Shown here piece by piece: positions 6,092 through 46,752 of a stretch of DNA of 64,000 bases. The stretch covers positions 310,001-374,000 of the forward strand of contig NZ_AUFT01000005.1 of assembly GCF_000426645.1 (NCBI RefSeq), given 5' to 3'. The stretch is from Nakamurella lactea DSM 19367 (lineage in GTDB: Bacteria > Actinomycetota > Actinomycetes > Mycobacteriales > Nakamurellaceae). A program made the translations under genes and the position numbers. How positions within the stretch are numbered: position 1 is the first letter of the stretch; every line of letters starts with the position of its first letter. The notes beneath the pieces were generated by a model. It was not told the DNA's origin, ran no database searches, and was given only the letters and a program-made list of their open reading frames with translations.

Positions 6092-8299
6092 ATGGACATC
6101 TGGCCCGGTACTCCTTACCCGCTCGGTGCCACGTTCAACGGGACCGGCACCAACTTCGCGCTGTTCAGCGAGGTCGCCGAGAAGGTCGAGCTCTGCCTGC
6201 TGAACGACGACGGCACCGAGACCAGGATCGAGTTGCCCGAGGTCGACGGCTTCGTCTGGCACTGCTATCTGCCGACCATGCAGCCCGGGCAGCGATACGG
6301 CTACCGGGTCACCGGCCCGTACGACCCGGCGACCGGCGCGAGGTGCAACCCGAACAAACTGCTGCTCGACCCGTACGCGAAGGCGGTGTGCGGCGAGATC
6401 GACTGGGACCCGTCGCTGTACGCCTACGACATGGGCAACCCGGAGGCTCCGAACGACGACGACTCCGGCCCGCACATGTTCTGGGGGGTGGTGATCAACC
6501 CGTTCTTCGACTGGACCGGCGACCACGCGCCGCAGACGCCGTACGCGGACACCGTCATCTACGAGGCCCACGTCAAGGGGCTGACGAAGCTGCACCCCGA
6601 AGTGCCGGAGAGCCAGCGCGGTAGTTACGCGGCGATGACGCATCCAGCGGTGATCGACCACCTGGTGCGGCTCGGAGTGACCGCGGTCGAGCTGATGCCG
6701 GTGCACCAGTTCGTCCAGGACAACACCCTGCTGGACAAGGGCCTGTCGAACTACTGGGGCTACAACACGATCGGATTCTTCGCCCCGCACAACTCCTATT
6801 CGGCATTCGGCGACCGCGGCCAGCAGGTCCAGGAGTTCAAGGCGATGGTCAAGGCCCTGCACGCGGCCGGCATCGAAGTGATCCTGGACGTGGTCTACAA
6901 CCACACCGCCGAGGGCAACCACCTGGGTCCGACACTGTCGTTCCGCGGCATCGACAACGCCGCGTATTACCGGCTGGTCGACGACGACCTGCAGTTCTAC
7001 ATGGACTACACCGGAACCGGTAACTCGCTGAACGTCCGCCACCCGCACTCGCTGCAGCTGATCATGGACTCGCTGCGGTACTGGGTGACGGAGATGCACG
7101 TCGACGGCTTCCGGTTCGACCTGGCGGCCGCGCTGGCCCGCGAGTTCTACGACGTCGACCGACTCTCCACCTTCTTCGAACTCGTCCAGCAGGACCCGAT
7201 CGTCAGCCAGGTCAAGCTGATCGCCGAGCCGTGGGACATCGGTCCCGGCGGCTACCAGGTCGGGAACTTCCCGCCGCAGTGGACGGAATGGAACGGGAAG
7301 TACCGCGACACGGTCCGCGACTTCTGGCGCGGCGAGCCGGCCGCGCTCGGCGAGTTCGCGTCCCGGATCACCGGATCGGCCGACCTGTACGAACATTCCG
7401 GGCGCCGGCCGGTGGCCTCGATCAACTTCGTCACCGCCCACGACGGGTTCACCCTCAACGACCTGGTCTCCTACGACGACAAGCACAACGAGGCGAACGG
7501 CGAGGACAACAAGGACGGCGAGTCGCACAACCGCTCCTGGAACTGCGGCACCGAGGGGCCGACCGACGACCCGGAAATCCTCGCCCTGCGCTCCCGGCAG
7601 CGACGGAACTTCCTGGCCACTCTGCTGCTCTCGCAAGGGGTCCCGATGCTGCTGCACGGCGACGAGATGGCCAGGACCCAGCAGGGCAACAACAACGCCT
7701 ACTGCCAGGACTCCGAACTCACCTGGATCGATTGGGCCGGCGCCGACGAATCATTGGTCGAGTTCACCGCCTCCGTGATGCGGCTGCGCAAACACCACCC
7801 CACCTTCCGCCGCCGGCGGTTCTTCGACGGCCGGCCGACCGCGCGGGGCGAGGGAGAACCGTTGCCGGACATCGCCTGGTTCACCCCCGCCGGGGTGGCG
7901 ATGACGGACCGGGACTGGGGCGCCGGGTTCGGCCGATCGGTAGCGGTGTTCCTGGACGGGCACGGTATCCACGGCACCGACACCCGCGGCAGCAAGGTGA
8001 TCGACGACTCGTTCATGCTGTTGTTCAACGCGCACGACGAGGGTCTGGAGTTCACTCTGCCCCCGGAGGAGTACGGCCAGGCCTGGCAGATCGTCATCGA
8101 CACCGCCGGGTTCGCCGACGGACAACAACCGGCCACCGCCGGCGGCTCGGTCCAGGTGGCTGCCAAGGGCATGGTGGTGCTGGAATCCGTGGCGGCAGCG
8201 GATGTCGATGCGCCGCAGGCCGATACGGCCGCCACCGTCCCGGCCGTTCCACCGGTGCCGGTCGGATCCCCGGCCCGCAACGGCGGAACCGCGGGCTGA
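6092..8299 (+). CDS. treX: Glycogen debranching enzyme TreX/GlgX (GH13)
   Basis: Isoamylase-type debranching enzyme that cuts alpha-1,6 branches of glycogen to give linear maltodextrins for TreY/TreZ. The 735-residue protein opens with a CBM48-type N-domain ([19 protein letters not shown]) and then the GH13 barrel. All four conserved GH13 regions are visible: [20 protein letters not shown] (nucleophile Asp), IAEPWDIG (acid Glu) and [10 protein letters not shown] (transition-state Asp). ATG at 6092 is preceded by GGAG and matches the family start. The C-terminal ~35 residues are Ala/Pro-rich and probably disordered. It is the first gene of treX-treY-treZ. Confidence 0.95.
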
Positions 8300-8337
8300 C
8301 GCCGGTGGCCCCGCCGAAGCCAGCTGGAGCCGATCCG

Positions 8338-10650
8338 ATGCGCACCCCGCTGTCCACCTACCGGATCCAGGTGAACGCGCGCCGGGGACTGCCGGAGGTG
8401 GCGCTGGCCGTCGACTATCTTCGCCGGCTGGGTGCCGACTGGCTGTACCTGTCGCCGTTGCTGCAGTCCACCCGCGGCTCCGACCACGGCTACGACGTGG
8501 TCGATCACTCCCGGACCGACGACACCCGCGGCGGTCGGCCGGGGCTCCGGCTGGCCGCCGACGCCGCGCACGCCGCCGGCCTCGGGGTGCTGGTGGACAT
8601 CGTGCCGAACCATGTCGGTGTCCAGGACCCTGTGCAGTCGATCTGGTGGTGGGACGTGTTGTATCGCGGACCGGATTCGGTGCACGCCACCGCGTTCGAC
8701 ATCGACTGGGAATTCGGCGACGGCCGGCTGCGGATCCCGGTGCTCGGCGACGGTCCCGATGAACTCGCTGCCCTGCAGGTCCGGGACGGGTTGCTCTGCT
8801 ACCACGACCACCGGTTCCCGATCGCCGACGGCAGCATCGGTATCGACCCGGCCGAAAGCCCGCAACAGATCCACGATCGCCAGCACTACGAACTGGTCAA
8901 CTGGCGGCGTGCCGATGCCGAGCTGAACTATCGCAGGTTTTTCGCGGTCAGCACGCTGGCCGGCATCAGGGTCGAACTCCCCGAGGTGTTGCGGCAGTCC
9001 CATGCCCAGATCAAGGACTGGATGGACCGTGGCTGGGTTGACGGGCTGCGGGTCGACCACCCGGACGGGCTGGCCGATCCGGCCGGCTACCTGCAGGCGC
9101 TGGCCCAGCTGGCCGACGACCGGTTCGTCGTGGTGGAAAAGATCCTGGAAGCCGGCGAGACGCTGCCGGCCGGCTGGAAGTGCGCCGGCACCACCGGCTA
9201 CGACGCGCTGGCCACCCTCGACCGGTTGTTCGTCGACCCCGCCGGCGAGGACGCCCTCGACGCCCTCGATACCGAACTGCGCGGCCGCCGGATGGACTGG
9301 CCGGAACTCGTGCACGGGACCAAACGCGCGGTGGCTGACGGCATCCTGCGCTCCGAGGTGCTGCGACTGGCCAGGTTGACGCCGCAGATCGACCGGGCGG
9401 ATGACGGGATCGCCGAGTTGCTGGCCTGCTTCGGCGTGTATCGCAGCTATCTGCCGGATGGCGACGAGCAGCTGACCGCTGCCGTTGACGAGGCGATCCG
9501 GCGCCGGCCGGAGTTGGCCGAGGTGCTGGTGTACCTGGCCGGGCGGCTGCGGGAAGCCGGGACCGAATTCAGCGTCCGGTTCCAGCAGACCTCGGGGATG
9601 GTGATGGCCAAGGGCGTCGAGGACTGCGCCTTCTACCGCTGGTCCCGGCTCACCTCGCTCACCGAAGTCGGCGGCGACCCCGCCGGGTTCGCCGTGTCCC
9701 CGGACGAGTTCCATGCCGTGCAGGCGCATCGGCTGCGGACCTGGCCACACACGATGACCGCACTGTCCACCCACGACACCAAGCGCGGCGAGGACGTCCG
9801 GGCCAGGATCTCCGTGCTGTCGGAAGTGCCGGGACGCTGGACCACCTTCGTGCGGACCTGCCTGCGGGTCGCGCCGCTGCCCGACGGGCCATTGGCGAAC
9901 CTGTTGCTGCAGGCCGCGTTCGGCAGCTGGCCGATCGAGCGGGACCGGTTACATGGCTATGCGGAGAAGGCAGCCAGGGAAGCCGGCGCCTCCACCGGCT
10001 GGACCGATCCGGATCTCGCCTTCGAACGGACGATGCACGCCATGGTCGACGCCCTGTACGACCATCCGGTGCTGTCCGTCGAGCTCGCCGCGATCGCGGC
10101 CGAGCTGACCCCGGACGGCTGGTCGAACTCGTTGTCGGCCAAGCTGATCCAGCTCACCGCACCCGGAGTGCCTGACGTCTACCAGGGCACCGAGACCTGG
10201 CAGAACTCGTTGGTGGACCCGGACAACCGGCGGGAGGTGGATCTGGCCGCCAACGCGACCCTGTTGGACCGGATCGACGGCCGGGGGCTGCTGCCGTCGA
10301 TCGACTCCTCCGGCGCGGCCAAGCTGCTGGTCACCTCGCGGGCACTGCGACTGCGACGTGATCATCCGGAACTGTTCACCGGGTATGCCGCGCTGCCGGC
10401 AGCCGGCGCGGCGCAGCAGCACCTGGTCGCCTTCGACCGCGGCGGCGCGATCACGGTGGCCACTCGGCTGCCGGTCGGCCTCGCCGACGGCGGCGGCTGG
10501 CGGGACACCCGGCTGGAACTGCCTGACCGGGACTGGGTTGATGTGCTGACCGGGCGTCGTCAGCCCCGTTCGGTCGCCGTCGACGGACTGCTTGCCGCCT
10601 ACCCCGTGGCGCTGCTGGCCCCGTTCGAGGTGGTGGACGCGCATGCGTGA
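8338..10650 (+). CDS. treY: Maltooligosyl trehalose synthase TreY (GH13)
   Basis: Converts the reducing-end alpha-1,4 bond of maltodextrins into an alpha,alpha-1,1 bond, giving maltooligosyl trehalose. The 770-residue protein starts [11 protein letters not shown], the standard TreY opening. It contains [11 protein letters not shown], the GH13 regions [20 protein letters not shown] and VVEKIL, and the TreY-specific [17 protein letters not shown] at 8338 has GGAG about ten bases upstream. The gene follows treX after 38 bases and overlaps treZ by 8 bases, so the three are co-expressed. Confidence 0.95.
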
Positions 10651-12409
10651 ATTCGCCGTCTGGGCACCGACTCCCGAGCGGGTGCGGCTACGCCACCGCC
10701 GGGTGGGTGACGCCCACCCGGCGATGGACACCCCGATGCTGCGCGGGGACGCCGGCTGGTGGCGGGTCGAGCTGGAGCTGGCACCCGACACCGAGGTCGA
10801 CTACGGGTTCCTGCTCGACGACGACCCGGCGGTACGGCCGGACCCGCGGTCGCGCCGGCAACCCGATGGGGTGCACGGCATGTCGCGCACCGTCACGCCG
10901 GTGGCCGGTCCCGAGTCCGACCGGCCGTGGACCGGACGGCAGCTGGCCGGCGGGGTGATCTACGAGCTGCACATCGGCACCTTCACCGCCGATGGCACCT
11001 TCGACGCGGCCATCGATCGGCTCGACCACCTGGTCGACCTGGGGGTGGACTTCGTCGAAGTGTTGCCGGTCAACGCGTTCAACGGCAGCCACAACTGGGG
11101 TTATGACGGAGTGCTCTGGTACGCCGTGCAGGAGAGTTACGGCGGCCCGGCCGGTTATCAGCGGTTCGTCGAAGCATGCCACGCCCGCGGGCTCGGGGTG
11201 ATCCAGGATGTCGTGTACAACCATCTCGGACCGAGCGGCAACTATCTGCCGTTGTTCGGACCCTATCTGCAGTCCGGCCACGCCAACACCTGGGGTTCGT
11301 CGGTGAACTTGGACGGTCCGGGGTCCGGCCAGGTCCGCCGGTTCATCCTGGACAACGCGGCGATGTGGCTGGACGACTACCGGGTCGACGGGTTGCGGCT
11401 GGACGCCGTGCACGCCCTGGTCGATCGTGGTGCCGTGCACCTGCTCGAGGAGCTGGCCGTCGAGGTGGCGGCTTTGTCGGCGCATGTCGGCCGGCCGCTC
11501 ACGCTGATCGCCGAGTCGGATCTGAACGACCCACGGCTGGTCACGCCCCGGCAGGCCGGCGGATACGGACTCGACGCCCAGTGGAACGACGACTACCACC
11601 ACGTCCTACATGTCGCGCTGACCGGCGAGAAGGTCGGCTACTACGCCGATTTCGGCAGCATGTCGGCGATCGCGAAGGTGTTGCGCGGCGCCTATTTCCA
11701 CGACGGTTCATGGTCGTCGTTCCGCGGCCGCAGCCACGGTCGTCCGGTCGACGTCAGGACCACACCGGCCTGGGCATTCGTCGGGTACTCCCAGGACCAC
11801 GATCAGATCGGCAACCGGGCGACCGGCGATCGGCTCACCGCATCGCTCGGCCCCGAGGACCTCGCGGTGGCCGCGGTGATGGTGCTCGCCGGACCGTTCA
11901 CCCCGATGCTGTTCATGGGTGAGGAGTGGGGGGCAGCGACACCGTGGCAGTTCTTCACCTCGCACCCCGAGCCGGAGCTCGGGATCGCCACCGCCACCGG
12001 CCGGCTCGCCGAGTTCGAACGGATGGGCTGGGATCCGACCGTCGTACCCGATCCGCAGGATCCGGCGACCTTCACGAACTCCAAACTCGACTGGTCCGAG
12101 CCGACCACCGGTGCGCACGCCGAACTGCTGCGGTTGTACCGCGAGTTGATCCGGCTGCGGCGCTGCCGGACGGAACTGACGGACCCCCGGTTCGACCGGA
12201 TCGGTGTCAGCTTCGACGATGCCGCGCGGTGGCTGTTGATGGACCGCGGCGGCCTCCAGGTAGCGGTGAACTTCGCCGACGCCGTCGCCACCATCCCGGT
12301 GCGCCGACACGGCGGCCTTTTGCTCGCCACGGCCGCCGCTTCCGTCGATGACGATGCGGTCGAGCTGCCGGCGCACAGCGCGGTCCTGCTGGCACCGTCG
12401 GCCGGGTGA
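10643..12409 (+). CDS. treZ: Maltooligosyl trehalose trehalohydrolase TreZ (GH13)
   Basis: Hydrolyses maltooligosyl trehalose to free trehalose, the last step of the TreXYZ route from glycogen. The 588-residue protein has an N-terminal beta domain ([15 protein letters not shown]) and a GH13 barrel. Visible motifs are [23 protein letters not shown] (nucleophile), IAESDLND (acid) and the TreZ-typical [11 protein letters not shown]. The start ATG at 10643 lies inside the treY 3' end (8-base overlap), implying translational coupling. Confidence 0.95.
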
Positions 12410-17477: not shown

Positions 17478-20298
17478 TCCGATGACCTCCGGTTCGGCGG
17501 CGGCCCGGATCAGGGCGCGGCGCAGACTCCGGCAGCGACTGAGCGGCGCCGCCGTTGCGGTGGTGGTGGCCGGAGCGGTGGTCGCCGTGATCGTGGTGCA
17601 GAGTGCGCCCGCGGAGGCGGCCTACCGAATGGCGCCGGTGGCAACGGGATCGGTGACCCAACAGGTCGTCCAATCCGGGAAGGTAGCCAGCGGGACACGC
17701 AATGACGTAGCCTTCGCCGTCGGCGGCACCGTGTCCACGGTGAAGGTCGAGGTCGGCGACACGGTGAGCGCCGGCCAGACCCTGGCGACCCTGGCCACCG
17801 ACGACCTCAGCTCGGCGGTCACCGATGCGAAGGACACCCTGGAAGCGGCCGAGCAGCAGTTGGCCGACGACCTGCAAGCCCAGCAGGATGCGGTGACCAG
17901 CAGCGCGGCAGCCAGCACTTCATCATCGGCGTCCTCGGCGTCGCCCGCGGCCGGCAACGACCAGGCTGGGTCGGGCTACGCCCCGGGCGGCAACAGCAAC
18001 GGCGGTGCCGGAAGTGCCGGGACCGACGCCGCCGCGGGGACGGGTACCGCCGGGGCCGCCGGCGGCGCCGGCAGCGCCGGCAGCACCGGCAACACCGACG
18101 ACGGGACCAACGCCGGCAGGAATGACGACACGGCGGGTGCCAAGGGCGCCGGGTCGGGCGCTGGTTCCGGCGCGGGGAGCCCGAGCAGCTCGGCCACCGG
18201 CGCCGCCCGCGGGACCTCGCCCACGTCGTCCGCATCGACCTCCGGCTCCGCGCCGCACGGTGGCACCAGCTCAAGCGTCCCGAACAGTCGCCCCACCAAC
18301 ACCGGTTCCGGCGGCGACGGCAGCCCGAACGGGTCAGGGTCGGCCGAGCTGCGGAGGGCCCAGCAGGCAGTGATCGCAGCCCAGAAGGCCGTCACCGCCG
18401 CATCGAACCGCGCGGCCCAGGGGCAGGCGGCGGTCGCCAACACCTGCACCTCCGACGTACTCGCACCAAGCTCCGGCGGTACCGACCCGACCACCACGAC
18501 GGATACTCCGACCTCGGACACCACCAGCACCGCCACCGAGGCCCCTACGACGGTCACCGAGACCGTCACCGACCCACCCGTCACCGAGACGGTCACCGAC
18601 CCACCGGTCACCGAGACGGTCACCGACCCACCCGTCACTCAGACCGAGACAAGCACCGAAACCGTGACCGTCACAGAGACGCCGTCCGCGTCGTCGCCCT
18701 CGACCACCTCGACCGACACCGACACCGCAGCGAGCGCCGGGCAGGCTGCCGATCCGCTTCGTGGCCAGGCCGCGTTCCTTCCGGCCGATTCCGGTGACGC
18801 GGCGTCATCCGTGCCGGTGTCGTCGGTGCCGGCGTCGTCCGGCGACGATCAGGCCGGGTCAGATTCAGATTCGGTGTCGGGCACAGACACGTCGACACCC
18901 GACTCGACGACGGATACGTCGACCACCGTGTCGACCGCGGGGCCGGCAACCCAGGACGGCACCGCCTTGCAGGCCTGTAAGGACGCATTGACCGACGGGG
19001 CCGCAAATCAGCAGGCGGTGAGCGCGGCCCAGGACGAGCTGACGGACGCCATCACCGCTTTGGCGACCGCCCTCACCACCACGCAGGGGCAGCCGGGCCA
19101 GAACGGGCAGGGCGGCCAGACCGGGTCGAACCCGACCGGCGCCGCACCCAGCAACAGCACATCGCCCAGTCGTGGCGGCAGCAACGGGCAGGGCAATGGC
19201 AACCAGGGCACCGGCAGTCAGGGCACGGGCAGCCAGGGCAGCACCGGCCAAGTCAACTCGGGCCAGGACAACGGAAGCCAAGACAACGGCAGCCAGGGCA
19301 CCGGTGTCCAGGGCACCGGTGCAGCTGCGGGCGCCGGTGGCCAGGGCTCCGACAGTCAGGGCAACGGGTACTCCGGCAGCGGGAACCAGGGCGCAGGGGC
19401 GACGACCAGGTCCGACGCGGCCGGATCGGGCTCGGCATCCAGTGGCGGGTCCGGGAGCTCCAGCGGCTCAGGGAACACCGGCGCGGCCGGGGCCTCCAGC
19501 GGCACCCGGAGTTCCGGTGACACCGGCACCGAGCAAGGTCAGGCCGGCCAGCAGGACCACACCCCGACCGCCGCCGACATCGCCACCGACCAGGCGAACA
19601 TCGACGTCGCCGAGTACGGCGTTGCGGTCGCCGAGCAGAGCCTGAGCCGGGCGCGACTCACCGCGCCGATCAGCGGATCCGTTGCTGCGGTGGACATCTC
19701 CCCCGGCGACCGGGTGTCCGCCGGCTCGACCAGTGCCGTCGTCACCATCGTGGGCACGAATCAGCATGTCGTCACCACCACGGTGCCACTGAGTGTGGTG
19801 GACAACGTCAAGGTGGGCGACCAGGCCGCCTTGGAGGTCAACGGAGTGGCCCAGGCCCTCGCCGGGAAGGTGTCCTACGTCGGATCGTTGACCAGCGCCA
19901 ACGGCGGCACCGCGACCACCACCACCTACCCGATCACCATCGTGGTGGATCCGGGCGAAACCCAGCTGTTCGACGGCTCGGGCGCGATGGTCACCCTCAC
20001 GGTGGCATCGGTCGATGGGGTGCTGACCGTGCCGACGTCGGCCGTCACCAACGACGGTGGCCGGTACTCGGTACAGGTGATGGACGGCGGCACGGTCACC
20101 AGTACGTCGGTGACGGTCGGCGCGATCGGCCCCGACCGGATCCAGATCCTGTCCGGCCTCACCAGCGGCCAGCAGGTGGTGCTGGCCGACCTGGCGGCGG
20201 CGATCCCGACGTCGACCAGACAGAACAGCAACAGCGGCCTGCTCGGCGGCAACGAGGCCGGCGGCCGGTTCGCGGTCGGTGTCCGGCCAGGCGGCTGA
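17470..20298 (+). CDS. Second HlyD-like adaptor with very large low-complexity insert
   Basis: 942 residues, far longer than the usual 350-500 of the family. It has an N-terminal transmembrane helix (residues ~26-45), the lipoyl half-motif VAFAVGGTVSTVKVEVGDTVSAGQ, then about 500 residues of Ser/Thr/Gly/Asn/Gln-rich sequence, broken by short helical pieces (ELRRAQQAVIAAQKAVTAAS and LQACKDALTDGAANQQAVS). The second lipoyl half (ARLTAPISGSVAAVDISPGD) and a beta-barrel domain close it. The helical pieces look like remnants of the adaptor coiled-coil hairpin, separated by linkers, with two Cys that could pair. The start overlaps the previous gene by 8 bases. It probably works with the same exporter. 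Confidence 0.75.
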   Translation: MADPMTSGSAAARIRARRRLRQRLSGAAVAVVVAGAVVAVIVVQSAPAEAAYRMAPVATGSVTQQVVQSGKVASGTRNDVAFAVGGTVSTVKVEVGDTVSAGQTLATLATDDLSSAVTDAKDTLEAAEQQLADDLQAQQDAVTSSAAASTSSSASSASPAAGNDQAGSGYAPGGNSNGGAGSAGTDAAAGTGTAGAAGGAGSAGSTGNTDDGTNAGRNDDTAGAKGAGSGAGSGAGSPSSSATGAARGTSPTSSASTSGSAPHGGTSSSVPNSRPTNTGSGGDGSPNGSGSAELRRAQQAVIAAQKAVTAASNRAAQGQAAVANTCTSDVLAPSSGGTDPTTTTDTPTSDTTSTATEAPTTVTETVTDPPVTETVTDPPVTETVTDPPVTQTETSTETVTVTETPSASSPSTTSTDTDTAASAGQAADPLRGQAAFLPADSGDAASSVPVSSVPASSGDDQAGSDSDSVSGTDTSTPDSTTDTSTTVSTAGPATQDGTALQACKDALTDGAANQQAVSAAQDELTDAITALATALTTTQGQPGQNGQGGQTGSNPTGAAPSNSTSPSRGGSNGQGNGNQGTGSQGTGSQGSTGQVNSGQDNGSQDNGSQGTGVQGTGAAAGAGGQGSDSQGNGYSGSGNQGAGATTRSDAAGSGSASSGGSGSSSGSGNTGAAGASSGTRSSGDTGTEQGQAGQQDHTPTAADIATDQANIDVAEYGVAVAEQSLSRARLTAPISGSVAAVDISPGDRVSAGSTSAVVTIVGTNQHVVTTTVPLSVVDNVKVGDQAALEVNGVAQALAGKVSYVGSLTSANGGTATTTTYPITIVVDPGETQLFDGSGAMVTLTVASVDGVLTVPTSAVTNDGGRYSVQVMDGGTVTSTSVTVGAIGPDRIQILSGLTSGQQVVLADLAAAIPTSTRQNSNSGLLGGNEAGGRFAVGVRPGG
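18553..18633 (+). repeat. Three tandem 27-bp repeats inside the second adaptor gene
   Basis: Three near-identical 27-base units (18553-18579, 18580-18606, 18607-18633), each coding for VTETVTDPP. They differ only at synonymous positions (ACC/ACG and CCC/CCG). The array sits in the low-complexity region of the adaptor and is a likely site of slippage and length variation. Confidence 0.9.
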
Positions 20299-43266: not shown

Positions 43267-43488
43267 TCACTGAAGTCGGTACCGGCCCCGTTCGACCACC
43301 ACGTCCAGACCGTCGATCTGCCCCGCGGTCAACTCGGCCGGGGGCTCGACGTCCTGGTCGACCGTCACCGCCAGAACGGGTACACCGTCACGCATCTTGA
43401 CCCCCACCGCGGACACTCCCGGGAGGGCGATCAGCCGCTGCTCATGGCGCCGTTGGACATCCACTGCCTGCTCGTACGACATCGTCAT
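43267..43488 (-). CDS. Small protein homologous to the N-terminus of the neighbouring protease
   Basis: 73 residues (MTMSYEQAVDVQRRHEQRL...). Its body, LPGVSAVGVKMRDGVPVLAVTV, lines up with RPGVTGVDVGYKVVGGVQTDQLAIRV at residues 21-46 of the divergent trypsin-like protein, including a similar helix before and PAE/PAEL afterward. It therefore looks like a free-standing copy of the protease N-terminal domain. ATG at 43482 is an alternative start. The longer open frame upstream is Arg-rich and unlike a protein. The function is unknown; a protease inhibitor or scaffold is conceivable. Confidence 0.65.
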   Translation of the reverse strand: MTMSYEQAVDVQRRHEQRLIALPGVSAVGVKMRDGVPVLAVTVDQDVEPPAELTAGQIDGLDVVVERGRYRLQ

Positions 43489-43628
43489 GGACCCAGTGTG
43501 AGCCCGTTGTCCGGCGGTGCGTGACGGCGGACGGGTGAACCGGTGACGGGGACGTATCCAACGCCGTCGGCGCTCGCTCTCACAGGCATCATGCGCTGGC
43601 ATCAGCTGACGCTCAGAAGGGAGTTGTC

Positions 43629-45020
43629 ATGTCAACATTGGACGAGCTGATCGCGATCAAGCAGCAGGTCGAGCAGCAGTACCTGGGTCGGCCCGGCGTC
43701 ACCGGGGTCGACGTCGGGTACAAGGTGGTCGGCGGGGTGCAGACCGACCAGTTGGCGATCAGGGTGCACGTCGAGGAGAAGAAGACCCGGGTGCCGGCCG
43801 CCGAAAAGGTTCCGGCCGAGATCGACGGCGTAGTCACCGATGTACTGGAACGCGCCTACCAGCTCCAGGTCGTCTCCGAGCCGCTGGACGTCGGCGTCCA
43901 GGCGGTGGACACCAATCACTACCCGACCCTGCAGGGCGGGATCAGCATGGGACCGAGCCGGGTGATCGGCGGCTCGATCTTCGCCGGCACGCTCGGTGCG
44001 ATCGTCGTCGACAACACCAACAACCAGCACGCGGCGCTCACCAACTTCCACGTCGCCTGTGTCGACTCGTCCTGGGCCGTCGGCAACCGGATGGTGCAGC
44101 CGAGCCGCATCGACACCGGCGTGGTGCCCGGCGACGAATTCGGCGGCATCGTCCGCGCCGTACTGTCCGGCCACGTCGACGGCTCGGTGGTTTCCATCGA
44201 CTCCGGTCGGGCAAACTCGGCCGAGGTGGCCGAGATCGGCACCGTCAAGGGCACCAAGACCGCGACGCTCGGGATGGCGGTTCGCAAGCGCGGCCGCACA
44301 ACGGGTCTGACCTACGGCTCGGTCGACGGACTGTCGCTGACGGTGAACGTCGACTACGGCGATGGCATCGGCGTCAAGCAGTTGACGGACCAGGTGAGCA
44401 TCGCAGCGGACACCACCAAGAACGCAATGTTCTCCGATCACGGCGATTCCGGCTCGGTGATCGTCGACGGCTCGGGTTACGTGGTCGGTCTGCTGTTCGC
44501 CGGCGCCGGGGCCGGCACGGTGGCCAATCCGATCGCTTCGGTGCTGTCCGAGCTCAACGTCTCGATGCTGGTCGGAAAGGCCCTGCTGAAGGACTTCAAG
44601 GACGGCCGCAAGGACATCATCAAGGACAAGGAACTGCTCAAGGAGCGCAAGGATCTGATCAAGGAGCACAAGGAGTTCGCCAAGGAACTGCGCAAGGACG
44701 TGATCAAGGAGCGGGTGCTCGAGGGCAAGATGCTCAAGGACATCCGCGACATCGAGATCCCGAAGCCGGGTCGGCCGGGCGATCCTGGCCCGGTCGAAGG
44801 CGGACGTTCGGTGGACGACCGGTTGGGGGCCATCGAGCAACAGCTCGCCGCGCTGACGAGTTTCATCGACCAGGATCAGCGCCCGGACCTGAGCAGCTCC
44901 GCGTTCTCCGGGGAGGCAGAACCCGGTCCGGACGAGCTGCAGGCACTGCGCGCCGAACTGGAGAACCAGGTGACCGAGGCGGCCGCCGCCAAGGCCGAGT
45001 TCGACGGGCCGATGGCCTGA
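43629..45020 (+). CDS. Trypsin-like serine protease with N-terminal domain and charged helical tail
   Basis: 463 residues, no signal peptide. Residues 1-80 are a small alpha/beta domain (PGVTGVDVGYK) seen before trypsin-like domains in other bacteria. The protease domain (~115-310) has His141 in LTNFHVAC, probable Asp184 in HVDGSVVSID and Ser274 in DHGDSGS. Residues 318-372 form a Lys/Glu/Asp-rich helix with repeated KD/KE pairs (KDIIKDKELLKERKDLIKEH), then a Pro-rich hinge and a final coiled-coil-like segment (~395-455). AAGGGAG lies 8 bases before ATG. It starts an operon-like run with the two ATP-grasp-type genes (gap 5 bases). Lacking a signal, it may act inside the cell. Confidence 0.82.
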   Translation: MSTLDELIAIKQQVEQQYLGRPGVTGVDVGYKVVGGVQTDQLAIRVHVEEKKTRVPAAEKVPAEIDGVVTDVLERAYQLQVVSEPLDVGVQAVDTNHYPTLQGGISMGPSRVIGGSIFAGTLGAIVVDNTNNQHAALTNFHVACVDSSWAVGNRMVQPSRIDTGVVPGDEFGGIVRAVLSGHVDGSVVSIDSGRANSAEVAEIGTVKGTKTATLGMAVRKRGRTTGLTYGSVDGLSLTVNVDYGDGIGVKQLTDQVSIAADTTKNAMFSDHGDSGSVIVDGSGYVVGLLFAGAGAGTVANPIASVLSELNVSMLVGKALLKDFKDGRKDIIKDKELLKERKDLIKEHKEFAKELRKDVIKERVLEGKMLKDIRDIEIPKPGRPGDPGPVEGGRSVDDRLGAIEQQLAALTSFIDQDQRPDLSSSAFSGEAEPGPDELQALRAELENQVTEAAAAKAEFDGPMA

Positions 45021-45025
45021 TCGTC

Positions 45026-45814
45026 ATGCTGCTGATCCTGTGTCCGCTGGACGACCTCGATGCCCTCGCCTTCGCCCACCGGGCGACGGCCGAGGGCACC
45101 GGGTGTCGAATCCTGACGGCCGAGGCATTGTCGTTCGCCGGTCGGCGATCTCATCGGATCGTCAGCCCCGTGCGCGGGTCGGGCGCTCCGATCTCGGTCC
45201 GCACCGAGATCGAGGCGCTCGGCCTGCCACCGATCAACGACGAGCAGGTCTCGGGTGTGCTCAACCGGCTGATCGAACCGCCGGCATCGGCCTGGCGACG
45301 GGCCACGGCGGTCGAGCGCGACTATGCGACGGCGGAACTGTTCGCCTTCACCATCAGCTGGCTCAGTGGGTTCGAGTGTCCGGTGCGGAACCGGCCGACC
45401 GCGAGCTGTCTGGCCGGCCCGGCCCCGCATCCGCTGCGCGCCGTTGTCGCGGCGCAGGCAGCGGGGCTGGAGTGCCCCGATCTGCGGTACGGCAGCGACA
45501 CCGCCGCTGCGCAGCCCGATCTGGCGGCCGCCGCGTTCGCCGCTGCCGGACCCGGCGCGCGGGCAAGACAGGTCGTCTGTCTGGACGGCATGGTGCTGTC
45601 GGACGGGATTCCGGCCGACCCGGGGGCGGGGGTCGTCGGGCTGCTGTGCGCCATCGGCGCCGACGCCGACCTGGTCGGGGTGGACTTCGCGGTGCGCGGC
45701 GACCACTGGGTGTTCGCCGGGCTGACGCCGCTGCCCGCGCTCGGTGGCCTCGGCCGGGATGGTCGCCGGACCCTGCTGGCAACGCTGACACCGGCCCGGA
45801 CGGCGGTGGCGTGA
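45026..45814 (+). CDS. Degenerate (pseudo) ATP-grasp protein
   Basis: 262 residues with no obvious family hit by eye, but alignable to the intact ATP-grasp protein downstream in three blocks. VSGVLNRLIEPPAS (76-89) matches LSGVYVRPVEPELS. NRPTASCLAGPAPHPLRAVV (122-141) with GLECPDLRYGSD matches NRLSAMGSNMSKPFQAQLI with FAVPETLVTDS. LVGVDFAVRGDHWVFAGLTP (216-235) matches FAGIDLKLCPDGRVVCFEVNP. The central block holding the ATP lysine is missing, and the metal-binding E-x-N is G-x-T, so it should not be catalytic. It overlaps the next start by 1 base (ATG) or 4 bases (GTG). A partner or substrate-recognition role is inferred. Confidence 0.6.
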   Translation: MLLILCPLDDLDALAFAHRATAEGTGCRILTAEALSFAGRRSHRIVSPVRGSGAPISVRTEIEALGLPPINDEQVSGVLNRLIEPPASAWRRATAVERDYATAELFAFTISWLSGFECPVRNRPTASCLAGPAPHPLRAVVAAQAAGLECPDLRYGSDTAAAQPDLAAAAFAAAGPGARARQVVCLDGMVLSDGIPADPGAGVVGLLCAIGADADLVGVDFAVRGDHWVFAGLTPLPALGGLGRDGRRTLLATLTPARTAVA

Positions 45815-46752
45815 TGACCGTGCTGGTCTGGGGCGTGCCGTCCGAATCGCCGGTGCGGATGATCACCGAGGCGCTCCGGGCCAACGGTGCCGATTGCGTA
45901 TCGGTACCACCGGAGGCGGACGGCGTCGAGGTCTCGCTCGCCGTCGATCCCGCTGGGCGGCTCTCGGGCGGGTTGCGGATCCAGGGCCGTGCGGTGCCCT
46001 GGCAGCAGCTCAGCGGGGTGTACGTCCGTCCGGTCGAGCCGGAGCTGTCGCCCCGGCTGCGGCAGCTGCCCGGCGAGGCCGCGCAGGTCCGGCACGCCCG
46101 CGCCGTGCACGACGCGTTGATCGCCTTCACCGAGGTCGCCGCCGACGGGCCGTATCGGGTCGCGAATCGGTTGTCCGCCATGGGCTCGAACATGTCCAAG
46201 CCGTTCCAGGCGCAGCTCATCGCCCGGCACGGATTTGCCGTCCCGGAGACGCTGGTGACCGATTCGGCCGAGGAGGCGCTGGATTTCGCGGACCGGCACG
46301 ACGGCGTGGTCTACAAGTCGACCAGTGGTATCCGTTCGATCGTCACCGTCTTCGATCCGGCCGCCGACCGGTCCCGCCTGAACCGGCTGCGCTGGTGCCC
46401 GGTGCAGTTCCAGGAGCGGATCGACGGGCCGGACGTCCGGGTGCACGTGATCGGGGGTGAGGTGTATCCGGCGATCGTCGGGAGCACCGCGGTCGACTAC
46501 CGATACGCCCGGGCGCAGGTCGGCCAGGATGCCACCCTGCAGCGTTGGGACCTGCCCGATGAATGGGCCGAGCGCTGCGTCGCACTGGCCGCCGACCTCG
46601 ATCTGCCGTTCGCCGGCATCGACCTGAAGCTGTGTCCCGACGGCCGCGTTGTGTGCTTCGAGGTGAATCCGTCGCCCGGCTTCCCGTGGTACGAGACCGC
46701 TGCCGGGCTACCGATTTCGGACGCGGTCGCCCGCTGGCTGGTCGCGGCCTGA
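45814..46752 (+). CDS. ATP-grasp ligase (RimK/MvdD-like)
   Basis: 312 residues. The N-terminal pre-ATP-grasp domain (~1-120) is followed by NMSKPFQAQLIARHGFAVPET, the ATP lysine in GVVYKSTSG (Lys168), the hinge CPVQFQERIDGPDVRVHVIG (199-214), and the metal site AGIDLK (Asp270) with FEVNPSPGF (Glu283, Asn285). These are the hallmarks of RimK/graspetide-type ligases that form amide or ester bonds on peptides using ATP. It starts with ATG at 45814 (or GTG 45811), coupled to the pseudo-ATP-grasp gene. Its 3' end overlaps the convergent DUF2809 gene by 45 bases. A substrate encoded nearby is likely but unproven. Confidence 0.85.
   Translation: MTVLVWGVPSESPVRMITEALRANGADCVSVPPEADGVEVSLAVDPAGRLSGGLRIQGRAVPWQQLSGVYVRPVEPELSPRLRQLPGEAAQVRHARAVHDALIAFTEVAADGPYRVANRLSAMGSNMSKPFQAQLIARHGFAVPETLVTDSAEEALDFADRHDGVVYKSTSGIRSIVTVFDPAADRSRLNRLRWCPVQFQERIDGPDVRVHVIGGEVYPAIVGSTAVDYRYARAQVGQDATLQRWDLPDEWAERCVALAADLDLPFAGIDLKLCPDGRVVCFEVNPSPGFPWYETAAGLPISDAVARWLVAA

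Follow-up and report, generated by a model that had tools for sequence, protein, structure and literature searches.

What does the ATP-grasp ligase encoded next to a protease gene in Nakamurella lactea DSM 19367 act on? The locus lies in a stretch of 64,000 nucleotides (contig NZ_AUFT01000005.1, positions 310,001 to 374,000; the window), where the genes for a NAL1-like protease (P0001), a degenerate ATP-grasp protein (P0002, here called Psi) and an intact ATP-grasp ligase (P0003) form one coupled run, adjoined by a divergent gene for a small protein (P0004). An original prediction, made from the letters of this DNA, had described this arrangement, and all four genes were found in place. It overlooked the linker and tail at the C-terminus of the protease, which are the key feature of the locus. 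Comparison across bacteria suggests that the tail is very probably what the Psi–ligase pair recognizes.

The tail carries the motif F[IV]xxxxRPx[LV], located after a short helix at the C-terminus. We compared 33 loci, comprising the window, L032, L034, L035 and twenty-nine loci from a scan described below. The motif is present in the last 110 residues in 32 of the 33, in the first gene in thirty-one and in a separate frame in L034, i.e. the tail is fused and C-terminal in 31/32; L103 is the sole locus without it. None of the 353 other open reading frames (ORFs) of loci L094–L122 contains the motif (these controls are frames of at least 100 amino acids, picked greedily and not all real genes), and it appeared in 2 of 6600 shuffled tails. 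Leave-out profiles omitted the tested locus or, if it was one of the four Variovorax loci or of the eight NAL1 loci from actinobacteria, its whole group. With these profiles the tail was the best match among all frames in 32/32 loci, at E < 0.01 in 29/32 and at 0.02–0.03 in L098, L099 and L106.

Whole genomes were searched with the tail profile as well. In 22 of 23 genomes there was, among the matches listed, exactly one tail match at E ≤ 1e-3, and it lay in the cassette (tail gene, Psi and ligase). G587, the genome of L106 (omitted from that profile), had no match at this threshold, its best being 0.12 and elsewhere. Another thirty-eight scattered rows fell between 0.03 and 0.5 among the matches listed. 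Substrates in trans, i.e. tail proteins elsewhere in the genome, were considered and rejected, with none at E ≤ 1e-3 in the 23 genomes (again among the matches listed). Within the window, the tail profile finds the protease alone (6e-8; next best 0.043). No short precursor with an N-terminal leader and this motif turned up in the window; no search was made for precursors lacking the motif.

Sixteen stretches with relatives of P0001 and no Psi–ligase pair (L033, L036–L050; L047 is only weakly similar to P0001) have no tail, Psi or ligase at E 0.01. The tail therefore tracks the pair and not the protease. Eleven loci with other ATP-grasps of the type acting on ribosomally synthesized and post-translationally modified peptides (RiPPs; L083–L093) lack the tail, and the ligase frame itself is their only match to Psi. 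The original prediction had suggested the protease itself as a possible modified partner, and the recurrence of the tail with the ligase pair (32/33) supports this. The tail and linker could also be a mere stalk for protein interaction, with the ligase and Psi acting on something else, as charged helical linkers are common. Such a stalk is quite unlikely given the sixteen protease-bearing stretches in which tail and pair are missing together.

The lead to other cassettes came from a genome of the same genus, where the gene for a weak Psi relative (L004/L034) sits between genes for an ATP-grasp protein and an M6 metalloprotease. In L034 a 66-residue frame carries PFIGSELRPDL and the M6 protease ends in KD-rich repeats; the protease and the tail stand in separate overlapping frames (~8162–10059, minus strand), through a split gene, a frameshift or a sequencing error. 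In L035, which has a second Psi relative, the equivalent ending is fused to the M6 protease. Genome G240 (L032) retains all four window genes, with identities of 64 per cent for P0001, 49 per cent for Psi and 64 per cent for the ligase. The first search had given Psi matches in five genomes, three of which carry the cassette (that of the window, G080 and G022); G024 was left out, and G082 has neither ligase nor tail in the stretch examined. A pattern-based scan with the ligase alignment, covering one genome per species (84,980 species), confirmed twenty-nine loci among 103 pattern matches. This is a lower bound because the patterns demand exact short stretches. Eleven of the scan loci are from Actinomycetota, twelve from Pseudomonadota, two from Myxococcota and one each from Bacteroidota, Verrucomicrobiota, Cyanobacteriota and Nitrospirota, and in 29/29 a Psi gene could be read directly ahead of the ligase. 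A gene-neighbourhood check for co-conservation in relatives had been proposed with the original prediction; gene order and content do recur, with tail, Psi and ligase together in 32 of the 33 loci and in seven phyla. Because they recur in unrelated bacteria, the composition of the locus is more than chance.

A further search for unseen ligases in 742 genomes (query genomes counted in) returned five at E < 1e-90. In four of these five new loci (L174, L175, L183, L184) Psi is present and the gene ahead of it carries the motif; L175 is closely related to L109. With the tail profile alone, 3/5 are recovered at 0.01, and the tail of L184 was read by eye. Ligases at E < 1e-90, query genomes included, occurred in 3/396 (phylum), 1/146, 2/250, 3/146 and 3/200 genomes. 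The system is widespread though rare. Mobile spread was considered and rejected, with no plasmid match at 1e-40 and two distant phage matches, and the pattern scan of viral contigs found no relative. The cassettes of L102, L112, L113, L117 and G592 (L111) have phage-tail-like genes (Baseplate_J, Tail_P2_I or DUF6519) nearby.

The first gene of the cassette varies. It is NAL1-like in 9/32 loci (the window, L032, L094–L099, L107), an M6 peptidase in 8/32 (L034, L035, L112, L115, L116, L119, L120, L121) and an S8 peptidase (subtilisin) in 5/32 (L101, L104, L105, L108, L118). For ten of the 32 tail genes Pfam gives no peptidase at E 0.01; these are L102, with immunoglobulin-like domains, four with DUF6519 (L111, L113, L114, L117) and five with no Pfam match (L100, L106, L109, L110, L122). 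The domains are unrelated to each other, and what unites these proteins is their linker and tail. A published view holds that the peptidases cut other cellular proteins into peptides for the ligase and are not themselves substrates, in keeping with the frequency of peptidases in branches 7 and 8 of the RiPP-type ATP-grasps (Makarova et al. 2022, PMC8939145). It is very unlikely to explain the present cassettes, where an equal tail is carried by the ten genes without a peptidase match and where peptidases of three unrelated families have the linker and tail alone in common.

Psi by itself has no match in Pfam, NCBIfam or PADLOC. Its family profile matches that of the ligase at 98.6 per cent probability (E 8e-16), and its AlphaFold model (predicted local distance difference test, pLDDT, 93.4) has as its best structural matches the graspetide ligases PruB, AMdnB/MdnB, MdnC and PsnB. 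The central ATP-binding part is lost. The Psi alignment takes in 28/29 scan loci, Psi of L115 being partly masked. When it is merged with the ligase alignment, lysines K129 and K168 and residue E283 of the ligase are absent in 32/32 Psi sequences and N285 in 31/32, and D270 is retained in nine and R209 in twelve of the thirty-two. The ligases keep K129, K168, R209, D270, E283 and N285 in 33/33. We take K129, K168, D270, E283 and N285 to be the ATP/Mg residues of the ligase, with E283 as the Mg-site Glu. The original prediction was accurate in calling Psi a degenerate ATP-grasp protein and P0003 an intact MvdD-like ligase. Comparing the loci shows that tail, linker, Psi and ligase go together, with Psi devoid of catalytic residues and the ligase in possession of them.

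In profile searches of the PDB, P0003 is nearest to PsnB/PruB and matches the graspetide ligase 7drm at 2e-43. It falls under the curated cut-offs of TIGR04187 (127.1 bits against 350), TIGR04184 (80.5 against 475) and TIGR04185 (79.1 against 425). A metabolic ligase of the D-Ala-D-Ala or glutathione synthase-like kind, the identity named as contrary to the original prediction, is not indicated: all such models stay far under cut-off (D-Ala-D-Lac ligase, E 0.003; glutathione synthase, 0.06 and 0.28). There is one ligase of this subfamily per genome in 19/19 cassette genomes (E ≤ 1.6e-108; next best 3.8e-49). A tree of fifty-eight ligases places those of the cassettes, of the Myxococcota pairs and of L176 in one branch (43 rows, 100/98); the cassette-labelled ligases, L082 and L103 included, are not one clade (two changes), and the deep forks are weak. 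Six Myxococcota ligases from the search of 742 genomes (L177–L182, 1e-62 to 1e-66) have no tail at 0.01. Among these sister ligases, the three whose loci were read, L177, L180 and L182, are paired with another pseudo-grasp, and in L180 and L182 the pair adjoins a gene reading like a polysaccharide-export protein. L120 has a second, more distant ATP-grasp ligase (17690–18646) about 7 kb from its cassette. A role in anti-phage defence was considered and rejected, PADLOC yielding just RmrA at E 0.02 for the ligase.

We next consider which part of the protein is modified. Taking the 85 residues ahead of the motif region as the linker, we found that its fractions of Lys and of Asp/Glu exceed those of the rest of the frame in 31/31 loci, where some frames start too far upstream and L034, with its linker in another frame, was left out. 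There are 365 cases of Lys followed by Asp/Glu, compared with 105 in shuffles (z 30). Asp/Glu at +4 and +5 is enriched too, as are Lys–Lys pairs at distances of 3, 4, 6, 7 and 10 among others; K[DE] dyads every 3–4 residues account for much of this distance enrichment, and K[DE] outnumbers [DE]K in 26/31. The Lys- and Asp/Glu-rich linker thus stands beside the motif in 31/31, with no invariant donor–acceptor pair defined.

The length after the motif varies from 3 to 42 residues. L102 and L106 have just three residues there, so the modified part should lie upstream in these loci, and a downstream site cannot be the general rule. At position 8 the motif has D in twenty-three cases, E in four and another residue in five. 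Since this position is not invariant, the motif holds no invariant acceptor. From the short ends and the lack of such an acceptor we infer a recognition motif at the end and a modified stretch before it; that the linker is what gets modified is slightly better than an even bet. The ligase might instead add amino acids or a small molecule to the tail or C-terminus, with no cross-linking, in a RimK-like reaction. Its Pfam RimK domain is above cut-off (31.1 bits against 21), and it has matches to the RimK subfamily TIGR00768 (58.7 bits) and to RimK in the PDB (8e-17). The TIGR00768 score is far under its cut-off of 143.4, the PDB match ranks below the graspetide ligases, and an end of such varied length does not suit tailing, which we regard as unlikely.

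Our proposal is that the cassette modifies its own protease. The helix and F[IV]xxxxRPx[LV] would form the recognition sequence, a graspetide 'leader' at the C-terminus, and the tail would dock on Psi or on the Psi–ligase complex. With ATP, the ligase would then activate Asp/Glu side chains in the Lys- and Asp/Glu-rich linker just upstream, which would be joined to nearby Lys side chains as isopeptides (−18 Da each). The cross-links may stiffen the stalk behind the catalytic domain, and in other loci the equivalent tail and enzymes would act on other proteins. As a whole, i.e. an RP tail read by Psi and ligase and a linker cross-linked by Lys–Asp/Glu bonds, we consider this proposal rather probable; taken singly, the Lys–Asp/Glu nature of the bond falls a little short of an even chance.

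The tail could also be a handle that joins the protein covalently to a partner protein, to itself, or to a component of the cell surface or of a particle. A handle of one kind is found on unrelated proteins, some loci adjoin phage-tail-like genes, and the Lys-rich linker gives many sites. Leaving aside the three cassette genes, no flanking family was seen in more than 4/29 loci, bar one antisense frame in five (the ORF calls behind this count are crude, and some of the known genes also escaped them). Baseplate_J is found in 14/27 cassette genomes and in 14/44 others; for this reason we do not argue for a link to contractile particles. On balance such a handle is improbable.

Several observations weigh against the cross-linking proposal. 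The linker of L110 is poor in Lys, [DE]K outnumbers K[DE] in the four Variovorax loci and in L118, and K[DE] dyads every 3–4 residues would equally suit an unmodified charged helix. The RP motif was likened to known leader motifs by eye only. The whole-genome tail search covers 23 of the 33 cassette genomes, and that of L103 is not among them. L103 itself (9285–10921) has Psi and ligase with no tail gene, the preceding gene reading like an amidase. In L082 (7735–9035) a ligase of the subfamily stands with no more than a C-terminal fragment of Psi, and we saw no target gene. In L176, the fifth of the new loci and from Myxococcota, a ligase of the same branch accompanies a less truncated Psi and, by eye, radical-SAM-like genes upstream, with no tail; this locus may stand midway between peptide systems and protein systems. 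The comparison of loci supports recognition well; the docking, the Lys–Asp/Glu chemistry and the effect on the protease are what we infer.

The protease P0001 scores 28.5 bits for Pfam Nal1_C (cut-off 26.1) and 18.4 bits for NAL1_N, under the cut-off of 27; Nal1_C is above cut-off in three of its six near relatives (L094–L099). The best PDB match of the family profile is rice NARROW LEAF 1 (5e-14), and it stops ahead of the tail. The predicted model is poor (pLDDT 57.2), and a Foldseek search with it is weak, placing NAL1 first (template modelling score 0.37, root-mean-square deviation 19 Å) and bacterial trypsin-fold proteases after it. H141, D184 and S274 do not vary among ten aligned rows, and we take them to be the NAL1 triad; the His and GDSGS regions are aligned to the PDB match. 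P0001 thus shares with plant NARROW LEAF 1 the N-terminal domain, the trypsin fold and the His and Ser regions. The plant protein is not known to have a comparable linker or tail, or a ligase pair. No signal peptide was seen by eye, as the original prediction had said. Past the protease domain, the order is linker, Gly/Pro-rich stretch, predicted helix, FIDQDQRPDL and 42 further residues (Table 1). In L033 (7471–8952), a NAL1-like protease with no ligase pair, the C-terminal part has PVTRDP repeats in place of the tail.

Close homologues of P0004 occur divergent to the protease in three other loci (L032, ~59–60 per cent; L095 and L096, 56 per cent). The original prediction had offered this small protein as another possible modified partner, which we reject: it is without the tail, and a close homologue is present in only four of the nine NAL1-type loci, window included. 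As for the run itself, P0001 and Psi are separated by 5 nucleotides, the stop codon of Psi and the start of the ligase overlap by one base (TGATG, 45812–45816), and the guanine-plus-cytosine content is 66–73 per cent, against 63–70 per cent in the surroundings.

Table 1. Position of the cassette genes and protease segments in the window.
Feature	Position	Strand	Basis
P0004, 73 amino acids, NAL1_N-like (resembles the N-terminal domain of the protease), alone	43267..43488	-	frame and homologues in other loci
P0001, trypsin-fold protease of NAL1-like type, 463 amino acids, ending in linker and tail	43629..45020	+	Pfam, PDB match, alignment
Lys-Asp/Glu-rich linker of P0001 (residues ~316-375), proposed cross-link site	44574..44753	+	composition
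Predicted helix ahead of the motif (P0001 residues ~394-411)	44808..44861	+	prediction; weak model has helix 395-407
Tail motif FIDQDQRPDL (P0001 residues 412-421), proposed recognition sequence	44862..44891	+	conservation across loci
P0002 (Psi), degenerate ATP-grasp without catalytic residues, proposed ligase partner	45026..45814	+	profile, model, alignment
P0003, intact graspetide-type ATP-grasp ligase, 312 amino acids	45814..46752	+	profile and PDB matches, residues

How does the cassette relate to described systems? According to a survey of ATP-grasp loci (Makarova et al. 2022, PMC8939145), a truncated ATP-grasp without catalytic activity is typical of branch 8. Peptidases from unrelated families occur in most loci of branches 7 and 8, no precursor is predicted in any of them, and two RiPP-type branches were left without substrates. 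The cassette matches branch 8, as far as the description of that branch goes: it has the ATP-grasp ligase, the truncated inactive ATP-grasp and peptidases of unrelated families, here NAL1, S8 and M6. It differs in that the survey gives no precursor, while here the C-terminal tail of a peptidase or non-peptidase is proposed to be one. The leader motifs PFFARFL and Phhx(1,2)h belong to other branches in the same survey. With the graspetide systems (microviridin MdnB/MdnC, plesiocin PsnB, PruB and fuscimiditide ThfB) the cassette shares the ligase family, the catalytic residues and a Lys- and Asp/Glu-rich region beside a short conserved motif, which here is a proposed recognition sequence. In contrast to them, its substrate region is fused to a whole enzyme, its motif is C-terminal, it includes a pseudo-ligase partner, and no short precursor with an N-terminal leader was found (window searched with the tail profile).

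Several reports are relevant to the proposed mechanism. A graspetide leader shifted to the C-terminus still functions, with RPFG as the key recognition sequence (PMC13003496), and the synthetase ThfB can cyclise whole proteins, with donors usually ahead of acceptors (PMC12291112). Partner-dependent graspetide synthetases are also described, together with a KIVAD Lys–Asp lactam (Carter et al. 2026, PMC13097080). Like the present ligase as we picture it, MirB–MirC in that report involves a ligase requiring a partner protein; the partner is like a peptidyl-prolyl isomerase there and a degenerate ATP-grasp here. Group 32 of the same report, with its diverse neighbouring proteases, may overlap the cassette. 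We found no paper in the open-licence literature that names this tail or a C-terminal tail as substrate. The statement in the original prediction that no characterised system has this composition therefore stands for function in the literature searched and fails for the locus type, already published as branch 8 (PMC8939145). The novelty lies in the tail, which would supply the missing signature of a substrate, and in a testable mechanism.

For branch 8, as far as that branch is described, the tail provides a candidate substrate that can be tested and that has a sequence signature, and it assigns a role to the inactive twin of the ligase. If the proposal is true, an enzyme of peptide natural products serves in the maturation of proteases and other proteins, and protein stapling would have a genetically encoded C-terminal tag in the motif. 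More tentatively, the cassettes may represent natural protein stapling, in which a graspetide-type ligase and its dead twin read a C-terminal RP motif on full-size proteins, proteases among them, and staple the adjoining Lys- and Asp/Glu-rich stalk through isopeptide bonds between Lys and Asp/Glu. The 'peptide' product would then stay part of a working enzyme, and graspetide chemistry would extend to enzyme maturation.

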